Assembly (NCBI RefSeq): GCF_000428725.1 | Contig: NZ_AUAM01000007.1 | Coordinates: forward strand, 124,001-188,000 | Direction of reading: 5' to 3' | DNA length: 64,000 bases | DNA from: Psychromonas aquimarina ATCC BAA-1526 | Lineage (GTDB): Bacteria; Pseudomonadota; Gammaproteobacteria; Enterobacterales; Psychromonadaceae | In this document: in pieces, positions 8,317 to 19,779 of the stretch | Numbering within the stretch: position 1 is the first letter of the stretch | Layout: each line of letters begins with the position of its first letter | Position numbers and translations under genes: made by a program | The notes under the pieces: generated by a model | Seen by the model: the letters and a program-made list of their open reading frames with translations, nothing else | Told to the model about the DNA's origin: nothing | The model's database searches: none

Positions 8317-8473
8317 GTAGTTACTTTCCTAAAATAGTTTTTTAAACGGCGCGATTATACTCTTTTAAAGGCCCGGGGAGAATAACAAATAAGGACAGGC
8401 GGGCACACTTAGAAAAGGCTCAAAATAGACTGTATTATTTACAATCGGAAAAACCGGTGCTGTTCATGCTTAT

Positions 8474-9451
8474 TCAGTACCGGATCCAGACTTCCTGCTC
8501 AACAAACACTTCAAATGACTGATACATCCGCAGATGATAGGGCCAGCGGAACTCCATCGCTTTCAGCTGCGGGTTGTACACACAAGTGTATAAGGTACCG
8601 AAATTATTCTGGTAGTCACTGGCAAATAACGGCGCGTATTCAAAACCGTCTATAAAGGATTCAATAGTAGCAACGGGATCGTATAAGCGGTCTAATAGAG
8701 CCTGTTTACGCTCGTAGGAGCGGGAGAACATGGCATAATTAGTTAATTCAAAATCGCCCTGATGATTCACGGCAAAAGGGACGTGCGTTACTTTAGTCTT
8801 ATTGACAGGAGACAGTTCCACGGTGGCGATATCAAAATAAGCATCAAGCAGGGTTATATTATAAGCCATATTAACCGGTACACGTTTAAGTACGGCTATC
8901 GCTTCCTGAGTATTTTTACAAAACTCCAGTATATAGCGCAGTACAAGGGGGATTCCAAAACCCTCACCGACACTGTGCGAACCGCCGAAGGCTAATGAGA
9001 CACATAAGCCGTGTTCATTCATGCCGTCGAGCAGCCCCCATAAACAGTCAGTGGCACCAATGACCTGAGAATTATGCCATTTCGATTTCATAATACGGCC
9101 TTCACATAAATCCGGACTGTAGTCGTAATTGCGTACTAATACGGGACTGTAACGTGACCATACGGCTTGTGAACAGCCGGTAATATATGGTGTCGGGCAG
9201 TATAAACTTAACAGGCGTGCATCACTTTCGTCGGCATTGGTTAAGTTTAACAGATGCTCCCAGATCGCCAGCAGCTCGGGCATATATTCTGTCAGAGCTT
9301 GTCCGCATTCCGCTAAGCCCGGCCTTTTAACAGCACCTTCTTTTAAAAACCAGTGTTTGTAGGCGGCATCTGCATGCTGATAATAATCAAGCCACTTTTC
9401 TGCCGGATAATCTTCATTAACGGCAATAAAACGTTTATTTAACATATTCAT
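8474..9451 (-). CDS. C45-like Ntn acyltransferase/amidohydrolase
   Basis: A 325-residue protein resembles the peptidase C45 / acyl-CoA:6-aminopenicillanate acyltransferase family of N-terminal-nucleophile enzymes. The candidate nucleophile is Cys93 in ITGCSQAVWSRY, preceded by Gly92 as at the self-cleavage site of the fungal enzyme. The following VLVRNYDYSPDL and the MNEHGLCVSLAFGG segment are also typical. Such enzymes transfer or hydrolyse acyl groups on amines. The ATG overlaps the stop of the ATP-grasp gene by 4 bases (ATGA), and it is the last gene of the six-gene operon. No signal peptide is seen, so it is probably cytoplasmic. Substrate unknown. Confidence 0.75.
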   Translation of the reverse strand: MNMLNKRFIAVNEDYPAEKWLDYYQHADAAYKHWFLKEGAVKRPGLAECGQALTEYMPELLAIWEHLLNLTNADESDARLLSLYCPTPYITGCSQAVWSRYSPVLVRNYDYSPDLCEGRIMKSKWHNSQVIGATDCLWGLLDGMNEHGLCVSLAFGGSHSVGEGFGIPLVLRYILEFCKNTQEAIAVLKRVPVNMAYNITLLDAYFDIATVELSPVNKTKVTHVPFAVNHQGDFELTNYAMFSRSYERKQALLDRLYDPVATIESFIDGFEYAPLFASDYQNNFGTLYTCVYNPQLKAMEFRWPYHLRMYQSFEVFVEQEVWIRY

Positions 9452-10950
9452 TCACTGCCGCCTTTGCTTGATGTCGGACTGTTATAACGCTCAATCAGCT
9501 TCTGCTCTTCACTGCTAAGCGCCTGAATATCAAAGGCGTTATTAACCGCCTGCAGCCATCTGGCGGCGGTGCTGTTCAATTCAGTGCCCCGGGCCTGAGT
9601 TAAACGGGTATTGAGAAATACAATCGCTAAGTCAGCTCCCTGGTAGGCATATTCATCGGCACCCATTATACGCATTATAAAACCGTGGTCCGGGTTATCG
9701 CTTTTATCGGTGACTTCACTGCCGGCTTTCAGCAGCTGCAGCTGATTATTATTATCCAGCTGGTAAACTCCCGAAACAGGTGCATTATGAATTTTTTGTA
9801 TCTGCTCCGGGGTGTGCTTGATAATCATCTGACTAGTTTCCCCCTGCGCACCTTCGGTTAATGACAGCTGATTATATTGTGCAGGAGAGATAAGATTTTC
9901 GGCTTCCACGCAGCCGTACTCTAATAAATGAAACAGAAATAGCGGTATGGTTTTCTGGCAGAACGGAGAGGTATTAGTCATTGCTGAAATTCCCGTTATA
10001 CGCGGATTTAATTCGCCGAGATAGACACAGCTGTCATCCAGATCGATCAGATAGTCAGCTTCAAAGTAACCACGATAGCCCCTTTCATACAAAGCACTGC
10101 CCAGGCTTTCAGTTTTTTCATGGATGTTTTTTCTCAGCTCATCTGAAAATGCGTCCTGATATAATTCGTTACCGCACCAGCCCCCTTTATACGGAGTTAA
10201 CTGTTCAAAGCCGATCATTTCACTCAGCAGTGGTCCTACGTAGGTGCCGGCCCTGGACGCGCATGCTTCGATTGCAGTGCCGACACAGTTGATGCGTTTC
10301 ATTATTTTGACTCTGTCCTGCTCTTCGATTTTTTCTGCGGCTTTGTTGTAGTCATCTTCGCTGCTGATAAAAAATGTGGTTTTGCCTGAGTCTCCATACG
10401 GCGTCTGTACTACCCAGTTTTTCCCAAGCATATGGCTTTCTGCCAGTGTTAATAATGTCTGGTAACTATCTACATTTGCTAGTGTATTAGGCACACTGGC
10501 TACGCCGGCTTCGTTACCAATTTCAGTGGTAGTTATTTTATTATCGATACTTTTTACCAATTCATTATCGGGTAGCTGAATATCGATACCAAGCTCGGTG
10601 CAGCGCGCCTGCAGCTCTGGGTTAAAAAACAGGAACAAAGCGCGAGCACTATTTTTGTCACTGCCATTCTGTTTTTCTGTATGATCAGCGAACAGTGTTA
10701 ATGACTGCGGATGGTTTAACAGATAGTAGTTAATAGACTCCAGCGATGAGAATACCCCGCAGCTGTTTAATGCTGGAATTAATGTACTTGCACTGAGCCC
10801 GTCGTAGCAGTTAATTGAATTAATATTTAACCAGTTATTTACCCAGCGGTGCATATCCATAAGGTTAAAATTAGTCGGGCTGATAAAATAGTAGGGCACG
10901 CTATTGCCGCTGAAATACTGTTTAACGGCTTCAAAGTTATCTAATTTCAT
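9448..10950 (-). CDS. ATP-grasp ligase, carboxylase-like
   Basis: A 500-residue protein has an ATP-grasp core: a phosphate-binding loop GDSGKTTF at residues 186-193 and the metal/ATP motif GELNPRITG at 312-320. Such enzymes activate a carboxylate as acyl-phosphate and join it to an amine or thiol. The N-terminal ~130 residues (NWLNINSINCYDG region) and the last ~150 are not recognisable to me. Translation is coupled by 4-base overlaps to the decarboxylase upstream and the C45-like gene downstream. This suggests that the three enzymes act in one pathway, for example joining a decarboxylated amine to an amino acid or carrier; that is inference. Confidence 0.75.
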   Translation of the reverse strand: MKLDNFEAVKQYFSGNSVPYYFISPTNFNLMDMHRWVNNWLNINSINCYDGLSASTLIPALNSCGVFSSLESINYYLLNHPQSLTLFADHTEKQNGSDKNSARALFLFFNPELQARCTELGIDIQLPDNELVKSIDNKITTTEIGNEAGVASVPNTLANVDSYQTLLTLAESHMLGKNWVVQTPYGDSGKTTFFISSEDDYNKAAEKIEEQDRVKIMKRINCVGTAIEACASRAGTYVGPLLSEMIGFEQLTPYKGGWCGNELYQDAFSDELRKNIHEKTESLGSALYERGYRGYFEADYLIDLDDSCVYLGELNPRITGISAMTNTSPFCQKTIPLFLFHLLEYGCVEAENLISPAQYNQLSLTEGAQGETSQMIIKHTPEQIQKIHNAPVSGVYQLDNNNQLQLLKAGSEVTDKSDNPDHGFIMRIMGADEYAYQGADLAIVFLNTRLTQARGTELNSTAARWLQAVNNAFDIQALSSEEQKLIERYNSPTSSKGGSE

Positions 10951-13637
10951 TTTATTGCTTCCAGGTTGTTGGTTATAAGAGCATCGTTTAATGCCTGCTG
11001 TAAGTAATCCTCAGAAAAAGTTTTCAAGCCTAATTCGCAGTGGTAGCCGTGAATTTCGCTAATAGTTAAGTTAGAAAAATAAACTAAGATGTCGTAGTCA
11101 ATTAACTGTCCCGGTACCAGCATTGGAAATCCGGGCGGATAGGGAGTTACATAGGATGCCGACACCCAGGTTTTACCGGCTTTTGCGGCCTGCATAATGC
11201 CGGAATCTAAGGTGATGTAACTAATGTTGTTATGATCGTAGGCGCTATAATAAGCACGGCGCATATCAACTAAGCAGCCGTGGTCATAGGTTGTGCTGTG
11301 AAATGGTGAAAACAGAGAGTGATAGCGGCGCAGCTGCGGCATTTTTACAGTTGTTTTATTATGTTTAATAATCGCGCCCTGCTCCCCGTCCCGGGCGGCT
11401 GAAATTCGTTCGCCCACTTCTTTTAATACATCAAGTAAATACAGAGAGGTGTCGGAATCCACTCCGATATTTACAATAAATAAGACTGTGTGCTGCGAGG
11501 TTTTGTTTACTTGAATATCGTAACGGTCAATCAGAAGCTGCCGAAAATGATTACCGTCCATTCCTGTGCCGCGGATATCCACAGTAATACGCGTAGGATC
11601 AACAACAAAACCCGACTGGTTAAACTGTGACAGCAGCGATAAGTAATTTCCGACGGCCTTGTTATTAGCGGATGCCGCAGAATTCTCATTATTTAAAGTT
11701 CTATCCTGCTCATTCGGATAAATGTCTTTTTCATCTAAGACCTTAAACAGCTGTGATAATCCGGGATCGGCTTTGATCTGCTGACGAATATAGTGCGCTA
11801 AACGAATGCTGTTCTGTGTGCGCTCGAATCCTTCTAAATTCATCTGCCGGCGGGCAATATCCAGTGAAGCTAAAATCTGATAATTAGGCGATGTTGAGGT
11901 GTGTGTATAAAACGCATCTAAAAAGTGTTCCTGATTAAACATTTCATCAAAGATATGGATCATCGAGCCCTGACGAAAGCAGCTTAATGTTTTATGGGTT
12001 GACTGTGTCGCATACACTCTTAATAAAACTTTGGCCGGATCCGGCCAGTCTGACTTGTCGCTTAACGAGTTATAAAACTCAAAATACTGTGCGCTGTTTA
12101 AACGTGCCCGTAATGAGTGACTCACCGCCATTGCGTGGCGTTTCTGATATAGAGGATTAAAGTGAGCGTGGGCAAACCATGCTTCATCCCAGTGAAAAAT
12201 AATATCCGGTTTTATTGCTAAAATTTCCATCATGTATTTTTCGACATCGTAAATTAAGCCGTCGAATGTCGAATTGGTGAGTATTATCTGTTTAACTTTA
12301 TGTAATAACCCCGCTTGTTTTAATTGTAATAAACGCGTTTTTATCAGGTTTAAGCTTACTGCGCCGTATAAATCTAAGTTGTCAACTGCATTGGTTTGTA
12401 AAAAAACAGCATGGGCGCCGCATAACATAACGCCGTAAGGCACAGACTTGTGACAGTCAGAAGAGAGTAGAACAATATCTCCGGGCTGAATATTGGCCTG
12501 CATTACTATTTTGTTAGACGTTGAAGTGCCGTTAGTGACAAAAAACGTCTGCTGCGATCCAAAACATTTGGCAGCTTTATCCTGAGAGTTTTTAATTGCA
12601 CCTTTGGGATTTAATAAGGAGTCCATGCCGCCCTGCGTTGAAGATGTTTCAGCATAAAATACGTTGTCACCATAAAACTGATAAAAGTCGTCTAACCACA
12701 ACGAATTTTTTATCGAACTGGCCTGCGAAATAGGCAGGGCATGAAATACTCCTTTAGGCTTTTTGCTGTATGCCTGTACCGCATTATAAAAAGGAGCATT
12801 ACAGCGTTCGCGTACGCCGTTCATTATATGGTAGTGAAGATCTTTAAACGGATGCTGGTAATAAAATACACGGTTAAACAGAGAAAAATAAAGTGCAGGC
12901 AGTTCACTGAAAACAGCTTCTGAGAGATAATAATGTTCCAGTTCGGGACGAAGCCCCCCGGCATACTGGTGAAGTAATAATGCGCTGTCTTTTTCTAGTG
13001 TATGCAGGTGCTCCCGACAGCAGAGATCCTGCTGCGACTGCTCAACAAACTGCAGCAGCGAGTTTGCCGAATCTAGATCGCTGTTTTTTCGGCAGCCCGA
13101 CAGCGACAGGCAGGCCTGGATATTAGGGTTATTCATTACTGCAGTAACGGCGTCGGCCAGATTACTGACAAAAACCAGATCGTAGTAGAATTCATCACGT
13201 TCAGTTTGTAACGTTTTTAAGGTGCTCTGGTAAAGATCAATATAAGTATCAGGATTCGGGTGTAATACTAATACGTCGAAGCAGGGTTTTAAATTTACGC
13301 ATTTATTCGCGTTTAATTTCGGCTTATCTAACTCGTCAACCGCTGTGCTGAAAGGTGAAAACGATGACTGACGTTTAGCCTGCAGTGCCGCAAAACTGTT
13401 TTCTGCTAACTGCTTTGCTAACAACAGCGAGTTTGTGTGCAGATAAGAACTTAGTTTGTTTATTATCAGCCGGCCCGGGTATGCCCAGAACCGCTCGTTT
13501 TTACCTAATTCAATAAAAATCGAAGCGGCGGCGTCTGTTTTATTTTCAGTTAAGAGACGGATAAACTGCTTCCACAGTGAATAGCGTAAAATAATATGAT
13601 CGAATGCGGGTTTACTGTCGCTAAAAGGTAACTTCAT
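10947..13637 (-). CDS. Orn/Lys/Arg-type PLP decarboxylase, long form
   Basis: An 896-residue protein whose central part (about residues 295-620) is a fold-type I Orn/Lys/Arg decarboxylase. It has an FFVTNGTSTSNKI cofactor-phosphate motif, SSDCHKSVPYGV, FHWDEAWFAHAHF with Asp484, and the Schiff-base lysine K549 in QSTHKTLS. The C-terminal YPPGFPMLVPGQ matches the family. It is longer than the usual 710-760 residues. The first ~290 residues include a receiver-like wing domain (about 117-185) plus an extra N-terminal stretch of about 110. The amino acid decarboxylated cannot be deduced. It lies 49 bases after the TPR gene and overlaps the ATP-grasp gene by 4 bases. Confidence 0.88.
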   Translation of the reverse strand: MKLPFSDSKPAFDHIILRYSLWKQFIRLLTENKTDAAASIFIELGKNERFWAYPGRLIINKLSSYLHTNSLLLAKQLAENSFAALQAKRQSSFSPFSTAVDELDKPKLNANKCVNLKPCFDVLVLHPNPDTYIDLYQSTLKTLQTERDEFYYDLVFVSNLADAVTAVMNNPNIQACLSLSGCRKNSDLDSANSLLQFVEQSQQDLCCREHLHTLEKDSALLLHQYAGGLRPELEHYYLSEAVFSELPALYFSLFNRVFYYQHPFKDLHYHIMNGVRERCNAPFYNAVQAYSKKPKGVFHALPISQASSIKNSLWLDDFYQFYGDNVFYAETSSTQGGMDSLLNPKGAIKNSQDKAAKCFGSQQTFFVTNGTSTSNKIVMQANIQPGDIVLLSSDCHKSVPYGVMLCGAHAVFLQTNAVDNLDLYGAVSLNLIKTRLLQLKQAGLLHKVKQIILTNSTFDGLIYDVEKYMMEILAIKPDIIFHWDEAWFAHAHFNPLYQKRHAMAVSHSLRARLNSAQYFEFYNSLSDKSDWPDPAKVLLRVYATQSTHKTLSCFRQGSMIHIFDEMFNQEHFLDAFYTHTSTSPNYQILASLDIARRQMNLEGFERTQNSIRLAHYIRQQIKADPGLSQLFKVLDEKDIYPNEQDRTLNNENSAASANNKAVGNYLSLLSQFNQSGFVVDPTRITVDIRGTGMDGNHFRQLLIDRYDIQVNKTSQHTVLFIVNIGVDSDTSLYLLDVLKEVGERISAARDGEQGAIIKHNKTTVKMPQLRRYHSLFSPFHSTTYDHGCLVDMRRAYYSAYDHNNISYITLDSGIMQAAKAGKTWVSASYVTPYPPGFPMLVPGQLIDYDILVYFSNLTISEIHGYHCELGLKTFSEDYLQQALNDALITNNLEAIK

Positions 13638-13686
13638 AATAAAACCTTAATAGAGTGCTTAATATCTGCTGCGTAAGTTTTAGGGT

Positions 13687-14334
13687 TTAGTTTTTCAGCG
13701 AAAAATAATAATTTGCCCTGATATTTTCAGGATCAAGAATTAACAGATTAGCATAATGTTCACTGGCAATGCTGTACATTTTCTGCACTGCAAAAATATG
13801 TGCATACAGCTCCATAAAGCTGACGTTTTCCGGATAGCGTTCGAGCATTTTCTGCAGCAGGGTTTCTGCATTGGCAAACTTCTTATTTTCAATTAAGGCG
13901 TAAGCCAGTTTTAAATTGCCGTAATAATTATATTCATCCTGTTTTAATATGCTGAAACCTAGCTCTTCGGCTAAGTTGTACTTGTGCTGGGCAATAGCCA
14001 CTGACATTAACCCTAATGTCGGCGACAGCGAGTTCGGTAGAGCGGCTTGTGCCGTCTGATAATGACGGGCAGCATTAGCGTATGAACCCTGCTGTAAATA
14101 CAGATAACCTAAGCGCAGGTTGACTGTATAACTATTTTTGTAATGGTTATGGACAACGGTTATTGCTTTAATTGCGTCGATATAATTTTCAGTACTCTCA
14201 TACTGGTAGGATTTCTGGTAAGCCTGTTTAATCTGCTGGTAACTGATTTCTGCATAAGCCGAGAAAGATATTAAAGCGCCCGCAATAATAAGGCTGATTT
14301 TCGCCATGTTTTCTTGGAAAATACGTAATTTCAT
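13687..14334 (-). CDS. Secreted TPR-repeat protein
   Basis: A 215-residue protein with a signal peptide (hydrophobic ISLIIAGALISFSAYA, likely cut before EISYQQ) is followed by about four or five tetratricopeptide-like helical pairs (for example LGYLYLQQGSYANAARHYQTA). It probably acts in the periplasm as a binding scaffold. The ATG at 14334 overlaps the stop of the 31-aa gene (ATGA) and has an AAGG site, so the M1 start is preferred over the internal Met 9 residues later. In context it may pair with the periplasmic M23 domain of the urea-transporter fusion. Confidence 0.8.
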   Translation of the reverse strand: MKLRIFQENMAKISLIIAGALISFSAYAEISYQQIKQAYQKSYQYESTENYIDAIKAITVVHNHYKNSYTVNLRLGYLYLQQGSYANAARHYQTAQAALPNSLSPTLGLMSVAIAQHKYNLAEELGFSILKQDEYNYYGNLKLAYALIENKKFANAETLLQKMLERYPENVSFMELYAHIFAVQKMYSIASEHYANLLILDPENIRANYYFSLKN

Positions 14335-14426
14335 AAAAGTACCTTCTGAATTAAAGTTAAAAGAAAAGCCGATATAAGCGCCAATGCATTTAAAGTGGTG
14401 ATATTTATTGCTATGCGGATGCTCAT
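14331..14426 (-). CDS. 31-aa single-span membrane peptide
   Basis: A 32-codon frame is locked between its neighbours. Its ATG overlaps the stop of the urea-transporter fusion (ATGA at 14423-14426), and its TGA overlaps the ATG of the TPR gene (14331-14334). The peptide begins MSIRIAINITTLNALAL, then runs ISAFLLTLI and ends QKVLL: one transmembrane helix with a short basic start. It is too short for ordinary gene calling, but the double 4-base overlap in an operon where other junctions are of the same kind makes translation likely. Role unknown; it may be a small partner of the membrane fusion protein. Confidence 0.65.
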   Translation of the reverse strand: MSIRIAINITTLNALALISAFLLTLIQKVLL

Positions 14427-16513
14427 TTCTTTACCCCCGCAGAGATAAGCTGAATATCTCCGGCCTGAATAAGAGTAAACTTAACGTAGGGATCTAAGAC
14501 TATTTTTGTTTTGATAGTATGCTGTGAAAACTTAGGTTTAATTTCACCTGCAATGGTGTGGTCATCAATAAATGCATAACGGGCATTATTAGTCACACTT
14601 TTGTTGGACATGATCTGCCGCCACTGCGAGAAAACCTGCTGCAGTTTATTACCGATAAAATGAACAGGAATAAAATCAAACCAGTGTGCCTGTTCAAGAT
14701 AATTAAACGGCAGGCTGGGCAGTGCCTGGTATAGAACTTTTAAATATTTATCATTACCTTCAAGGTGGTAAAAATAAAAACACGAGTCCGATCTGCCTAA
14801 ATAAAGGCGGCTGCCGTGACGTTCTAAATAAAAGGTGCCGTCAATTGCCATTTTTGTCACAAACTCTATCCTTCCCAGGTCTGTACCTGTTTCTTTAACA
14901 TTAAAGTGCAGAATGTCGTCTAATATAAAATTGCTGACCTGCATATAATAACTATGGTTATAAGCTGGTTTTAGATGAGTATTTTCCGGCGGTACACAGT
15001 GATGGCGATAGGTATCTTGTTCAATTACACCGTTAAAACAAAACGGTATTGTTGCCGATGCGATGTAGCTGCTGCTTTGATACTGCATATGAATATGCGG
15101 CTGCGGCGAGTATCCGGAATTACCGCAAAGCCCGACAACCTGATAAGGCTCTACCCAGTCACCCTGCTTAACAAATACCTTGTATTGCGATAAATGACAG
15201 AGAGCAACATAAAAACCGCGAATATCCTGAATAACAATATAGTTACCCCAGTTATTTATGGTGTCGACAATGCCGATAGAGTTATCAGCAAAATGGTCTG
15301 TGGCATTAACCACATAGCCCTGTACCGGCGAGCAGACCTCTTTTTGAAAACAAAAATAATCATGCAGCAGTTTGCCGTCATTGTGAAAGGTACTGCCGGT
15401 ATTATCTGTTTTTACAAAATCATAAGCGTAACGCCACAGTCCTTTATGTGTCCATTGCCCGTCAAAACCCTGTGAAACCATCCATTCGTCACTAAAGGGT
15501 AAGTGCATAGTAACCGCACTCGGGTAACGCAGCTGTGCAGTATGAAAATATTCAGCAGTCTGCTCCGGCGTTGGTTTATAAATAAAAGGCCGCAGCGGAT
15601 AGTTCAGTAACCCTAATACATAGGTCATTCCTAAAGTAATCACGATAAAGGGCAGGGTAAAAACCGGGATACCGTACTGCGACCAGAAGACATCGGTAGA
15701 GCTGAGCAGTATAGTTGCTAATGCCACGCCGATAAACGCAAGAACATAACTGCGCGGCGACGGAATATTTAATACGCAGCCTAATGCCATGGCGATTAAT
15801 ATATAGTTAAAGGCGGCTATATCCATTACCGCCATATCATATGAACCTGTAAAAGCCCCCTGCAGAGCAGTACCGAATAAAAATCCAAAAACAGCAAGCA
15901 GTAATAAAATTCGCGATGCGAAACCAATCATTAACAGTATTAAAAGACCGGCAGCCGGACTGGGTAAAAATATAATAGCCCCTAGTGCCTGCAAAAATCC
16001 GCTCAGCCAAAGAGGCAGCAGATCGGATGGAAAAGTAAGTAAGTAGACCGGGGTATAAATATCGTTAACATATAAGTTGGAAAACCGTGAAGCCGCTAAA
16101 TAAATTAACGAGCTGACAATAACAAAGGGGATACTTAGAATCTGCAGGCCGAATAAACGGTAAAATATATTAGCTAAACTTAAGGTTAAAATAAAAGTAA
16201 GCACCGCGGCGATAGCGATAAATGGAACGGATAACCAGGACAACTCAAATAGATAACCGATAGACAGCCCGACCAGCAGCGGGTTGTAGGTGTAATAACC
16301 CGTGGTCAAAAACTCCGCATGATAACCGATAAAACGCGCAAAACTATAGGCTGAACATATTGCTAATAACCCCGACAGGCCTAGATGCGGATTTATGCAG
16401 GTGATCAGTAAAATAATTAAACCTGAAAAAAAATTCTGCAGAAAAAATATCTCAGAATAACTGTTAAGCACAGGTTTAACTTTGCTAAAAACTGAATAGA
16501 TAAATGCTTTCAC
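14423..16513 (-). CDS. Urea transporter fused to M23 metallopeptidase domain
   Basis: A 696-residue two-part protein. Residues 20 to about 305 are a polytopic urea-transporter (UT) domain, with GYYTYNPLLVGLSIG and a second half containing FNYILIAMALGCVLNIPS. Residues from about 330 form an M23 (LytM-like) fold. Likely zinc ligands are H356 and D365 in THKGLWRYAYDF and the HxH at 473-475 (QPHIHMQ), with the family segments CSPVQGYV, GNYIVIQD and VVGLCGNSGYS. The last ~190 residues are unassigned. Start: GTG at 16513 has an AGAAGG site 6 bases upstream and gives a sensible MKAFIYSVF N-terminus. The frame also allows a GTG at 16594. It is the first gene of the operon. Confidence 0.85.
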   Translation of the reverse strand: MKAFIYSVFSKVKPVLNSYSEIFFLQNFFSGLIILLITCINPHLGLSGLLAICSAYSFARFIGYHAEFLTTGYYTYNPLLVGLSIGYLFELSWLSVPFIAIAAVLTFILTLSLANIFYRLFGLQILSIPFVIVSSLIYLAASRFSNLYVNDIYTPVYLLTFPSDLLPLWLSGFLQALGAIIFLPSPAAGLLILLMIGFASRILLLLAVFGFLFGTALQGAFTGSYDMAVMDIAAFNYILIAMALGCVLNIPSPRSYVLAFIGVALATILLSSTDVFWSQYGIPVFTLPFIVITLGMTYVLGLLNYPLRPFIYKPTPEQTAEYFHTAQLRYPSAVTMHLPFSDEWMVSQGFDGQWTHKGLWRYAYDFVKTDNTGSTFHNDGKLLHDYFCFQKEVCSPVQGYVVNATDHFADNSIGIVDTINNWGNYIVIQDIRGFYVALCHLSQYKVFVKQGDWVEPYQVVGLCGNSGYSPQPHIHMQYQSSSYIASATIPFCFNGVIEQDTYRHHCVPPENTHLKPAYNHSYYMQVSNFILDDILHFNVKETGTDLGRIEFVTKMAIDGTFYLERHGSRLYLGRSDSCFYFYHLEGNDKYLKVLYQALPSLPFNYLEQAHWFDFIPVHFIGNKLQQVFSQWRQIMSNKSVTNNARYAFIDDHTIAGEIKPKFSQHTIKTKIVLDPYVKFTLIQAGDIQLISAGVKK

Positions 16514-17037
16514 AATAAGCCTTCTTTTTCTAATAAAAGCAGATAAGCATTTGTAATAACGCTCTATCTGAACAGAGCTGGGATTACGTAACACGCATAG
16601 GCTCTTTTATTTGATTTTGTGACCGTAAGATTAAGTGTGAAAAGTGCAAACAATGTGCAAACAATAAGTAACATTGAGGAAGATGATTATTAATAAAACT
16701 GCTTTGCCGATGCTGTTCTAATATGAAACTGGGTAAAGTAAAAAACAAAAATATTCACTGTTATTATGCTTTGCTGATCAATAAGCAGTTATCTCTTAAA
16801 GCCTTGATGCCGAGGACTTATTACTCTACCGGCGCAGCTCTTTAAGGCACCTGCTTAATTTCAATTTATGAGGCGCAGGACGCAGCTGTAATACTTTTTA
16901 TTTGTGTAAATGATAAGGGTCTCTGTCCCTTGAGTGACTTAATAACACTTTCCATTAAAGCACTAAAACAGTTACAGTAAATGCATTCAGTAATGCGCTC
17001 AACTTGTCTAGTCGTATTTATAATGAGATTCATCGTA
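16514..17037. other. Divergent intergenic region, operon versus histidine kinase
   Basis: About 520 bases without a credible gene lie between the two divergent starts. The region should contain both promoters. The only distinct structure I see is the 11-base tandem repeat at 16644-16665. In-frame codons upstream of both chosen starts (16594 minus, 16981 plus) leave some uncertainty about the exact borders. Confidence 0.5.
16644..16665. repeat. Tandem 11-bp direct repeat, possible regulator site
   Basis: GTGCAAACAAT occurs twice head to tail with no spacer, 131 bases upstream of the urea-transporter operon start. A helical-turn spacing of 11 bases would suit two protein subunits on one face of DNA. 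No known regulator matched. Confidence 0.4.
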
Positions 17038-18762
17038 ATGAAAATTCAGAACAAACTCTTTTTGATACTGTTCAGTTTCAGCCTGCTGCTGGTGGCGGCC
17101 TTAGTGCTGTTAATGCAGTGGAGTATCGGCAAGGGTATGGTCGAATATGTAAATGTCAAAGAGGTTGAAGCATTAAAGCCTCTAGTAGAAGAACTTGCCG
17201 CTGAGTATCAAAAAGAAAACAGCTGGTCGACATTACAGGGAAATAATAAAAAATTTGCAGATCTGGTTTATTTAAAACTTAAAGACAGCGGATTTCTACA
17301 GCCGTTACCAGTCCACCGGCAGGAGCGGCCTGAGTTCAGAAATCCACCACCAAAATTCAGGGATTCACCTCCGGACTTTAGAGAGCCGCCCCCCGATTTC
17401 AGAGAACCGCATCCGGGCTTTAGAGAACCGCACCCAGAATTCAGAGGATCGCCTCCGGACTATAGAGAACCGCCTCCCGGTTTTAGAGAACAGTCAGCAG
17501 AGAGCAGAAGGCCGCACCGAGAATTTCACAGGCCTCGATCAGACTCTGAAATCCCGCAGCCAGGAAACAGAAAACCGCGTCGGGAATTTATGGCCCCGCC
17601 AGACTCTGAAAGCTCATCAGCTGAAAACAGAAAACTGCCGCCGGAATTTAGAGATCCGCCCGCAGACGGCGCAAATTATGCCTTACTTGACAGCAGTGAA
17701 GGCCTGGTTGCCGGGCACTACAGTGAAGACCTTGAATATACTAAAACGGCTGTTACTGTTGATCAGGTAAACGTCGGCTGGTTAGCAGTTCAGAAGCGCA
17801 ATAAAATAAGCGATGGTTATGAATTAGATTTTATCGAGCAGCAGCAGAGTTACTTGTGGATCATCGCTTTGACAGCCATGATTTTAGTTGCCTTAGTCAC
17901 ACTGCCCCTTGCACGCCATTTAGTTGGACCTATTAAACTGATAATAACGGGCATGCACAAATTAACCCAGGGCAAATATCAGCAGAATATTGAACTGCGC
18001 CGGCAGGATGAACTGGGCGAACTAGGCCGTGACTTTAATGAGCTGGCTTTAACATTAGATGAAAATGAAACTGCCCGAAAACGCTGGCTGGCTAATATAT
18101 CTCACGAATTACGGACGCCGGTTGCGATATTACGCGGTGAACTGGAGGCAATGCTCGATGATGTCAGGCCGCTCAGTAAAAAAAATATAGATTCAGCCAA
18201 TGATGAAGTAAAACATCTGCAGTATCTGATCGATGATCTGCATCAGCTGACCAGCGCAGATATCGGCGGTATGCATTACCGCAAAAAAAGCGAAGACCTG
18301 AGCTTGTGGCTTAACTCGGAGGTACATAAATACAGCAGCTACCTGGCTGATGCAGGCATACAGCTTGAAGCTGCAATAGGGGAAATACCGGCAGAAATTT
18401 TTGCGGATAAAACCAGGTTATGCCAGCTGTTTGAGAACCTGATTAATAACTGCATTAAATATGCACAGGCAAGTCTGGTAAAAATATCTCTTGAAGTAGA
18501 TGAGACGTCAGGCAAATCAGCGGCGATAGTAAAAGTGCAGGATAATGGTGTTGGTGTTGCCGAGGAGCATCTGCCGAATTTATTTGAACATTTATATCGA
18601 GTTGAAAACTCTAGAAATCGTAAAACGGGCGGGTCAGGACTCGGGTTATCCATATGCGCACATATTGTCGCTGCGCATCAGGGTGAAATTTCAGCCGAAC
18701 AGTCCAGTTTAGGCGGGTTAGCAATTGTTATCGAGCTGCCGTTAAGTAAAAGCGCTAAATAG
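17038..18762 (+). CDS. Sensor histidine kinase with Pro-rich heptad sensor region
   Basis: A 574-residue membrane sensor kinase from the MKIQNKLFL start. It has a first membrane helix at about 5-27 and an extracytoplasmic region to about 270. A second helix follows (IIALTAMILVALVTLPLA), then a HAMP domain, a HisKA box NISHELRTPVAILRGE with the phospho-acceptor His, and an HATPase domain (LINNCIKYA, DNGVGV, GGSGLGLSI). The layout resembles BaeS/CpxA-type kinases. The extracytoplasmic part contains about 16 heptads of the FREPPPD type. No response regulator gene is adjacent, so its partner is elsewhere. Starts at 16981 or 17023 are possible, but 17038 gives a family-like N-terminus. Confidence 0.88.
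   Translation: MKIQNKLFLILFSFSLLLVAALVLLMQWSIGKGMVEYVNVKEVEALKPLVEELAAEYQKENSWSTLQGNNKKFADLVYLKLKDSGFLQPLPVHRQERPEFRNPPPKFRDSPPDFREPPPDFREPHPGFREPHPEFRGSPPDYREPPPGFREQSAESRRPHREFHRPRSDSEIPQPGNRKPRREFMAPPDSESSSAENRKLPPEFRDPPADGANYALLDSSEGLVAGHYSEDLEYTKTAVTVDQVNVGWLAVQKRNKISDGYELDFIEQQQSYLWIIALTAMILVALVTLPLARHLVGPIKLIITGMHKLTQGKYQQNIELRRQDELGELGRDFNELALTLDENETARKRWLANISHELRTPVAILRGELEAMLDDVRPLSKKNIDSANDEVKHLQYLIDDLHQLTSADIGGMHYRKKSEDLSLWLNSEVHKYSSYLADAGIQLEAAIGEIPAEIFADKTRLCQLFENLINNCIKYAQASLVKISLEVDETSGKSAAIVKVQDNGVGVAEEHLPNLFEHLYRVENSRNRKTGGSGLGLSICAHIVAAHQGEISAEQSSLGGLAIVIELPLSKSAK
17335..17667 (+). repeat. 21-bp coding repeat array (FREPPPD heptads)
   Basis: About 16 in-frame copies of a 21-base unit encode heptads such as FRDSPPD, FREPPPD, FREPHPG, FREPHPE, FRGSPPD and YREPPPG. 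Those after the eighth are strongly decayed. One unit near the end is 6 residues long. The array makes an Arg/Pro-rich, probably extended stalk in the extracytoplasmic part of the histidine kinase. Confidence 0.85.
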
Positions 18763-18879
18763 AAAAGTTCACAACATGCAGAACTTAAACGTTATAGCAA
18801 TGTTTTTCAATCGCCTGGCCGTGCTTCAATTCGATTACCTGCAGCTGACATTAGAGGCGCTAAGTCCCCTGATACATGC

Positions 18880-19779
18880 CTATTGGTTGTGCGCTAAAAT
18901 CCAGTTTAAAAATGCCTGATATTTCGGCCGGTTCTCCTGTCCTTTAGAACAGATAAGATCATAACCAAGGCCGGCATCAACAGGAGCAAAAGGTGCTGTC
19001 AGCTCTCCTGATTCGATATGACTTTGAATCAGTTCAGCGCGCCCCATAGCAATGCCCATTCCCTGTCGGGCTGCCACTGCTGCCATTTCACAATGATTAA
19101 ACTGATATTGTCTCTGCTCGCAGTCTAAATCAAGCGAATTAGCCTTCAGCCAGGTTGACCATTCATGAATCGGTGAGATACTTTCAAGCGACTCAATACA
19201 GTGGATAAATGTAACAGCTTTTAAGTTTTCAATATTATCAGCTAGTGCAAACTGCAGGGCATATGCAGGCGTACAGACAGGTATTAACTTTTCACTAAAC
19301 AAACGCAGACAATGCAGATCCGGATGATCTTCATTACCATAATAAATCGCTAAATCGACGGGTTCATGCTTAAAATCGAGCTTGCTGGCTTTTATCCTGA
19401 TTTTAACATTTAAATTCGGATACAGTTTTTGAAAACTCGGCAGCCTAGGCATCAACCAGGCTAATGCAAAAGTCGGCGAGGCGCCGATATACAATTCTCC
19501 ACGCAGCTCATTAAAACGTATATCTTCCACTTCAGAAAAAATTTCTGCAAAAGAGTGATTTAATGTTGCTAATAAACGTTCTCCTTCCGTGGTTAGTTCT
19601 AAACGGCGGGTAAGACGCACAAATACAGAGAATCCGAGATGTTTCTCAAGATTTTTAATACGGTGACTTACCGCGCCCTGCGTTAAACATAACTCTTCAC
19701 CCGCTTTAGTAAAGCTCAGTAAGCGGGCGGCCACACTGAATGTATGCATATTAGCAAGCAATGCCTGTTTGTTATCCAT
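18880..19779 (-). CDS. LysR-family regulator, DsdC/GcvA-like
   Basis: A 299-residue LysR protein has an N-terminal winged helix (ANMHTFSVAARLLSFTKAGEELCLTQGAVSHRIKNLEKHLG, residues 9-48 or so) and a periplasmic-binding-fold effector domain. The DNA-binding part resembles the DsdC/GcvA group by pattern. It is divergent from the glycosidase gene with 175 bases between starts, the usual arrangement for a LysR activator and its target, so it probably controls that gene. Effector unknown. Confidence 0.88.
   Translation of the reverse strand: MDNKQALLANMHTFSVAARLLSFTKAGEELCLTQGAVSHRIKNLEKHLGFSVFVRLTRRLELTTEGERLLATLNHSFAEIFSEVEDIRFNELRGELYIGASPTFALAWLMPRLPSFQKLYPNLNVKIRIKASKLDFKHEPVDLAIYYGNEDHPDLHCLRLFSEKLIPVCTPAYALQFALADNIENLKAVTFIHCIESLESISPIHEWSTWLKANSLDLDCEQRQYQFNHCEMAAVAARQGMGIAMGRAELIQSHIESGELTAPFAPVDAGLGYDLICSKGQENRPKYQAFLNWILAHNQ

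Follow-up and report, generated by a model that had tools for sequence, protein, structure and literature searches.

We analyzed a stretch of 64,000 nucleotides from Psychromonas aquimarina ATCC BAA-1526 (RefSeq assembly GCF_000428725.1, contig NZ_AUAM01000007.1, positions 124,001 to 188,000; hereafter the window), in which an earlier note, made from the letters alone, had described a six-gene operon. Its six minus-strand open reading frames (ORFs) were found where the note had placed them, and Pfam and NCBIfam scans match the family names it had used: a fusion of a urea-channel domain and an M23 peptidase domain (UT-M23), a TPR protein, a decarboxylase dependent on pyridoxal phosphate (PLP), an ATP-grasp ligase and a C45 acyltransferase or hydrolase of the N-terminal nucleophile (Ntn) type, together with a 31-codon ORF (Table 1). 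Four of the five junctions are indeed 4-base overlaps, at 14423-14426 and 14331-14334 (read in the letters) and at 10947-10950 and 9448-9451 (derived from the ORF coordinates), and the junction between the TPR and decarboxylase genes is a 49-bp gap. The decarboxylase lysine K549 and the Gly92-Cys93 pair of the C45 protein are present as claimed, and the residues E313, N315 and R317 of the ATP-grasp motif (E-x-N-x-R) are invariant in 11 aligned rows. The longest ORF of UT-M23 begins with a GTG at 16594, and most homologues start nearer 16513, where the true start probably lies.

Table 1. Features of the operon and of the adjoining region, in positions of the window
Feature	Position	Strand	Basis
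Putative horizontally acquired island (operon and divergent sensor kinase)	8371-18880		Flank matches to sister species G016 end at 8370 and resume at 18881
C45 (AAT-family) Ntn acyltransferase/hydrolase	8474-9451	-	PF03417 1.2e-36; NF040521 2.2e-46, over cut-off
ATP-grasp ligase, PRK06524-like	9448-10950	-	NF005096 9.1e-144, 479 bits, below cut-off of 684
Rv2531c-type fold-I PLP decarboxylase	10947-13637	-	OKR_DC_1 4.9e-71; PDB 9n0o 5.7e-174
TPR protein	13687-14334	-	TPR_16 1.8e-10 and other TPR families
31-codon ORF overlapping both neighbours	14331-14426	-	ORF list; not conserved
Urea-channel/M23 fusion (UT-M23)	14423-16594	-	UT (PF03253) 6.4e-62; Peptidase_M23 2.9e-10
UT domain of UT-M23	~16477-15617	-	Pfam UT 6.4e-62
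M23 domain of UT-M23	~15484-15077	-	Peptidase_M23 2.9e-10
Divergent orphan sensor histidine kinase	16981-18762	+	HisKA, HAMP, HATPase

The operon is a real and widely conserved set of genes. Thirteen loci with the operon came from a scan of genome contigs, and searches with its ATP-grasp protein were positive in 10 of 369 and 11 of 398 genomes (threshold of 1e-40) and in 9 of 385 genomes (threshold of 1e-100), these samples having part of their genomes in common. Across 46 ATP-grasp loci, C45 was present in 43 and the decarboxylase in 40. Four loci (L014, L017, L039 and L071) miss one core gene at a contig end, three (L031, L038 and L060) are without the decarboxylase, and L072 is without both the decarboxylase and C45. 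The earlier note had supposed a conserved functional set, and the genes do recur together in unrelated bacteria; of its six families this holds for the decarboxylase, ATP-grasp, C45, UT-M23 and TPR proteins, and the 31-aa peptide is not conserved. Since an ATG-started small ORF overlapping the UT-M23 stop is absent in the nine relatives examined, we discarded that ORF as a conserved part of the operon. In its place the locus L005 (5879-6781) has a gene for a 300-aa barrel-like protein, to which other barrels are dissimilar by BLAST; that the 31-aa ORF is a remnant of this barrel gene is a guess. Two records with the operon, L010 and L012, are titled metagenome-assembled genomes (MAGs) of Klebsiella pneumoniae and Akkermansia muciniphila, titles that are probably wrong.

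In the ATP-grasp tree, the loci are split by a single branch (support 100/100) into two clades with different partners. The 29 clade-A loci frequently carry a carbon-nitrogen hydrolase (22/29) and never UT-M23 (0/29). In clade B, which comprises 17 loci and the window, the carbon-nitrogen hydrolase is absent (0/17), and UT-M23 (12/17), a TPR protein (15/17) and a barrel-like protein (12/17) are common; where UT-M23 is missing, in five loci of clade B, the contig breaks off on the side on which that gene is normally found. The genomes of L036 and L039 bear UT-M23 on other contigs, namely L095 (alone at a contig end) and L094 (with TPR, decarboxylase and the start of ATP-grasp). Five clade-B labels (L006, L015, L017, L036 and L039) were assigned by similarity of the other genes and are not fully independent, L017 being too short for the ATP-grasp tree.

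The best evidence on what UT-M23 serves came from loci where other enzymes stand beside it. A search of 369 genomes with UT-M23 yielded matches in 25, including 16 near-full-length places in 15 genomes, the rest being partial or broken; 12 of these 15 genomes had no match to the operon ATP-grasp protein in a 369-genome search. We fetched 14 places, leaving out those in G160 (contig end) and G111 (internal stop). Two of them, L094 and L095, belong to genomes that carry the genes of the window's kind, or type 1 (G291 and G308), and the other 12 were classed as type 2. A fold-III PLP decarboxylase resembling LysA and FslC adjoins UT-M23 in all 12 type-2 loci, and an ATP-grasp enzyme of another family, resembling carbamoyl phosphate synthetase (CPSase), is present in 10 of them, L082 and L092 being cut contigs. 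BLAST also found TPR proteins in 7/12, barrel-like proteins in 8/12 and a PqqD-domain protein in 8/12, and Pfam a short PqqD-domain protein in L090; at L083:10642-11409 and at L090:11102-11344 the gene for this protein lies ahead of the type-2 gene for ATP-grasp. The PqqD-domain protein hints at a peptide-bound substrate in type 2. No C45 match was found in the fetched type-2 stretches. The decarboxylases of the two types are unrelated by BLAST, and the type-2 decarboxylase and ATP-grasp enzymes gave no match at 1e-8 in the type-1 and clade-A loci or in the window. Because two unrelated pairs of decarboxylase and ligase thus adjoin UT-M23, this module appears tied to a chemistry of decarboxylation followed by ligation, whichever enzymes perform it.

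Other results temper this argument. The two ATP-grasp enzymes have a weak stretch in common (26.6 bits, E=0.001, 44 residues), which membership of one superfamily may account for. A tree of 27 UT-M23 rows needs three changes of type, at least two of which are forced, and two are still forced after removal of L090, a long branch; once L082 is removed as well, one change suffices, which leaves repeated swapping a fragile result. In L082, a truncated contig, the LysA-like gene adjoins UT-M23 and the ATP-grasp gene falls beyond the contig end. We therefore hold one exchange of enzymes, at the least, to be solid; any further exchange depends on L082.

We then considered how the channel protein may be placed in the envelope. 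The match of UT-M23 to TIGR03441 reaches 120 bits against a cut-off of 274.6. Its AlphaFold model (mean predicted local distance difference test (pLDDT) 77.8, predicted template modelling score (pTM) 0.61) superposes on the urea transporter dvUT (PDB 3k3f, TMt 0.83), and its downstream part matches an M23 domain of the lysostaphin type. Ten membrane segments put both termini on one side. The loops on that side hold on average 8.7 Lys and Arg residues per sequence against 0.6 on the opposite side (13 sequences), with 9.0 against 0.7 in 15 type-1 rows and 8.6 against 1.1 in 12 type-2 rows, and the excess is present in each of 27 single sequences. The positive-inside rule then predicts a cytoplasmic position for the M23 domain, an unusual place for it, which contradicts the periplasmic M23 domain of the earlier note. 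The zinc-site residues H383, D392, H467, H500 and H502 are present in 27/27 sequences, so that zinc-hydrolase activity of the domain is quite plausible. The two pore glutamines of human UT-A align to E48 and A206 in the window and gave no conclusion on the substrate.

A periplasmic M23 domain would suit a system of envelope remodelling, a view close to that of the earlier note: the domain would cut peptidoglycan, and the enzymes would supply an amine or amide for attachment to the wall or release from it. The homology of the domain to lysostaphin and ShyA, its complete zinc site, the TPR and barrel partners and the LysA-like decarboxylase of the type-2 loci all speak for this; the uniform charge bias of the loops places the domain on the wrong side of the membrane, and its first zinc histidine is separated from the aspartate by 8 residues, against the canonical 3 of M23 enzymes. 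We regard remodelling as improbable. The TPR protein of the window has an N-terminus that by eye resembles a signal peptide. In Pfam scans, five barrel-like proteins gave no family above its cut-off. The last residue is Trp or Phe in seven of eight, a C-terminal pattern from which we read them as outer-membrane barrels. The envelope side that the earlier note had assigned to the operon gains from the barrel-like neighbours of clade B, and is not supported as regards the periplasmic M23 domain.

The closest structures to the decarboxylase are those of Rv2531c (PDB 9n0o, 9n0n and 9n0p), the first aligned over residues 37-880 (Table 1). In 31/31 family rows the Schiff-base lysine K549 (codon 11993-11991) and the residues at positions D330, H245 and W333 of E. 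coli CadA are kept, so the PLP core is intact. The substrate pocket differs. The position of CadA E526, which we take to be the acid that binds the distal amine of the substrate, is N711 in the window (11507-11505) and Asn in 31/31 rows; the E. coli enzymes CadA, LdcC and SpeF have Glu there, and AdiA has Thr. The position of CadA E663 is Q844 (11108-11106) and Gln in 31/31 rows. The altered pocket argues against lysine and ornithine, and on the loss of the E526 acid we rejected a lysine or ornithine decarboxylase, both amino acids being among the candidate substrates that the earlier note had listed. AdiA, which acts on arginine, likewise is without this acid, a point that weighs against our choice of substrate and keeps arginine among the candidates. 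That choice, made tentatively, is glutamate or a gamma-substituted glutamate, which would give gamma-aminobutyrate (GABA) or a GABA amide.

The pocket also bears on a role in polyamine metabolism or acid stress, in which putrescine, cadaverine or agmatine from the decarboxylase would be acylated by the ATP-grasp and C45 enzymes and exported through the channel. Pfam does name the decarboxylase family Orn/Lys/Arg, and ureohydrolase genes lie near the decarboxylase gene in L032, L066 and L067, with a ureohydrolase in L031 that exceeds an agmatinase cut-off. The invariant replacement of both CadA glutamates speaks against it, no amino-acid/amine antiporter is found among the operon proteins, and a charged diamine is ill-suited to a urea-type pore. 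We consider this role unlikely.

The family NF005096 (PRK06524), over whose cut-off four of the four scanned clade-A ATP-grasp proteins lie, with the window protein under it, is named "biotin carboxylase". The general base of biotin carboxylases is the Glu of a QVEH motif, and in a weak profile alignment to pyruvate carboxylase its position is Ile in the window protein; we rejected this identity on the absence of that Glu. A fold search with the predicted model, which is poor, returned generic ATP-grasp enzymes (E-values down to 3e-10, TM ~0.28). In the C45 protein, the putative nucleophile Cys93 (codon 9175-9173) is preceded by Gly92, so that the predicted Gly-Cys autocleavage site is kept. 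The four C45 proteins of Shewanella (L007, L008, L009 and L016) have Gly for the catalytic Cys, and are nonetheless 62-64% identical to the window protein; a conserved pseudo-enzyme is possible there.

Taken together, these features led us to propose a mobile cassette that decarboxylates, ligates and moves, making and transporting a small amide, a proposal to which we give even chances. The cytoplasmic PLP decarboxylase would remove CO2 from an amino acid or an amino-acid derivative, the ATP-grasp enzyme would activate a carboxylate as an acyl phosphate and couple it to an amine, and the C45 Ntn enzyme would transfer or release the acyl group. A small amide or pseudopeptide would result and be handled by the inner-membrane pore of the urea-channel type, with the C-terminal M23 zinc-hydrolase domain acting at its cytoplasmic mouth; a route across the envelope would be completed by the TPR protein in the periplasm and, among relatives, by a barrel in the outer membrane. 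We infer the order of the reactions, the substrate, the product, the direction, the cytoplasmic side of M23 (by the positive-inside rule) and any M23 activity. We lean slightly towards export, since clade B has partners in the envelope and its flanks, read by eye and by BLAST with the core queries, held no catabolic neighbours that we recognised. A wider reading, which we put forward as doubtful, is that of a new class of channel-coupled metabolite system, in which a urea-type pore with a cytoplasmic zinc M23 amidase domain serves as outlet or inlet for two unrelated pairs of PLP decarboxylase and ATP-grasp enzyme that came to their common chemistry independently, the TPR protein and outer-membrane barrel completing the trans-envelope path.

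The neighbourhoods of clade A bear on the substrate of the pathway and on its direction. A Shinella plasmid and the locus L031 each group ATP-grasp and C45 with genes for a ureohydrolase, a 5-guanidino-2-oxopentanoate decarboxylase, a permease (read by eye in L031) and an aldehyde dehydrogenase, a set that can presumably lead from arginine to GABA; the genome of L031 (G362) has no orthologue of the operon decarboxylase, its best match being at 31% identity. GABA transaminase genes lie near L032, L061 and L069, a succinate-semialdehyde dehydrogenase gene near L032, PutA near L035 and a TAXI-TRAP transporter near L068, and the ureohydrolase of L067 is agmatinase-like, just under the cut-off. Over the 29 loci, we counted class-III aminotransferases in 9, aldehyde dehydrogenases (PutA included) in 7, ureohydrolases in 5 and TRAP transporters in 4-5, these counts being of BLAST clusters in which only some members were family-scanned. 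A glutamate dehydrogenase read by eye beside L033 gained no family match at 1e-60 and was set aside.

Because clade A looks catabolic, salvage or catabolism is the main rival: an amide or acylated amine would enter via the barrel and the channel and be split by cytoplasmic amidases (M23, C45 and, in clade A, the carbon-nitrogen hydrolase), the ATP-grasp enzyme and the decarboxylase handling the parts, with a logic comparable to that of the gamma-glutamyl route of putrescine use. The neighbours just listed favour it, from GABA transaminase, succinate-semialdehyde dehydrogenase and PutA to the arginine-degradation set, doeA/doeB and the uptake transporters, as does the alternation of an amidase-like partner (carbon-nitrogen hydrolase or M23) between the clades. 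It is harder to reconcile with the clade-B flanks, in which inspection by eye and BLAST with the core queries recognised no catabolic genes (no family-library scan was run there), with an operon that is without a binding-protein uptake gene, and with an ATP-consuming ligase and a decarboxylase, which are unusual in simple salvage. We hold salvage to be possible, if on the doubtful side.

Several observations count against the cassette as we drew it, or against parts of it. The catabolic look of the clade-A neighbours argues against a purely biosynthetic reading. In L055, the three core genes (for the decarboxylase, the ATP-grasp enzyme and C45) are embedded in a cluster for ectoine degradation that includes ectoine hydrolase and deacetylase genes, its doeA and doeB homologues scoring over their cut-offs; L053 shares part of this cluster. 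The L031 ureohydrolase is over the NCBIfam agmatinase cut-off and may make putrescine rather than GABA, and the GABA context is a minority signal, so we keep the glutamate/GABA reading as a lead. The UT family consists of equilibrative channels, so that transport may run either way. The operon of the window is without a barrel gene, L012 and L013 gave no match to the barrel queries, and a barrel search of the window's genome gave no match, an empty result that shows nothing there. Finally, the predicted ATP-grasp model is poor (pLDDT 62.9), and the C45 nucleophile is kept as Cys in 34 of 38 rows, all four Shewanella rows having Gly instead.

The mobility of the proposed cassette is drawn from its surroundings. 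In the sister species G016, the LysR and tmk genes (both ~93% identical to those of the window) lie ~100 bp apart with no island between them; G001 and G005 share this gene order, and in G023, G006 and G008 LysR is also missing at the site. None of 23 other genomes of the genus gave a match to the ATP-grasp protein at E 0.001, and the sensor kinase had no match at the island site in six relatives of the genus. Because the flanks join in same-genus relatives in which the island is absent, a joint arrival of operon and divergent sensor kinase, as one ~10.5-kb unit, is most likely. The ATP-grasp tree, in which the window groups with a Halobacteriovoraceae MAG, Hydrogenovibrio and Thiomicrorhabdus, fits horizontal transfer.

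Between the membrane segments of the kinase, 21-nt repeats (17335-17659) encode a Pro/Arg-rich stretch. Next to the kinase, we recognised no gene for a response regulator in the window's ORF list. A histidine kinase and a regulator-like gene, the latter read by eye, lie near the type-2 loci L083, L084 and L086 and the Sideroxydans operon L011, and two-component control may recur at such operons.

We found no description of the system in open-access full text with narrow queries in which all terms were required, and the operon is apparently undescribed. An anti-phage defence system was discarded, as PADLOC defence models gave no match at 0.001 for the five operon proteins (two weak ones were found for the kinase ATPase domain), and so was a viral origin, as a scan of viral contigs with UT-M23 gave no relative. 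If our reading is right, it adds a system that is both metabolic and envelope-linked, gives a cytoplasmic job to a family of wall-hydrolase domains and gives the urea-channel family a partner chemistry. A single transporter module with two unrelated enzyme pairs as neighbours is a natural control of a sort that links a transporter to a type of reaction, and the question of the substrate of Rv2531c-type decarboxylases becomes testable now that partner ligase, transferase and transport genes are named.

Among known systems, one parallel is butirosin, whose BtrJ, BtrK and BtrH likewise bring together an ATP-grasp enzyme, a PLP-dependent decarboxylase and an acyl transferase within a single pathway, as the earlier note had pointed out. 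BtrK is presumably a fold III decarboxylase and BtrH a member of an acyltransferase family other than AAT, and here the families are OKR_DC_1 and AAT. Pfam scans of the five operon proteins found no BtrH_N domain at E up to 0.1 and no acyl carrier protein (the 31-aa ORF lay outside these scans). The parallel thus breaks down in decarboxylase family, acyltransferase family and carrier protein alike, and we rejected a butirosin-type side-chain pathway for the window. The type-2 loci, with their fold-III decarboxylase, are nearer to butirosin; they share the channel/M23 protein with the window and differ from it in an unrelated decarboxylase, an ATP-grasp enzyme of another family and the lack of a C45 match. 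UT-M23 resembles dvUT (3k3f) and lysostaphin-type M23 enzymes in its domains, here joined in one polypeptide with M23 predicted to be cytoplasmic. E. coli CadA, LdcC, SpeF and AdiA share the fold-I family and the PLP core of the window decarboxylase, which is 140-180 residues longer and has CadA E526 and E663 replaced. Rv2531c of M. tuberculosis, a "probable amino acid decarboxylase", has the same pocket Asn and Gln in the aligned letters; according to a passage of a 2026 review (PMC12910592), the structural study left its activity unclarified. Each known kind that we compared fails at least one tested feature, and every single domain of the operon comes from a known family.

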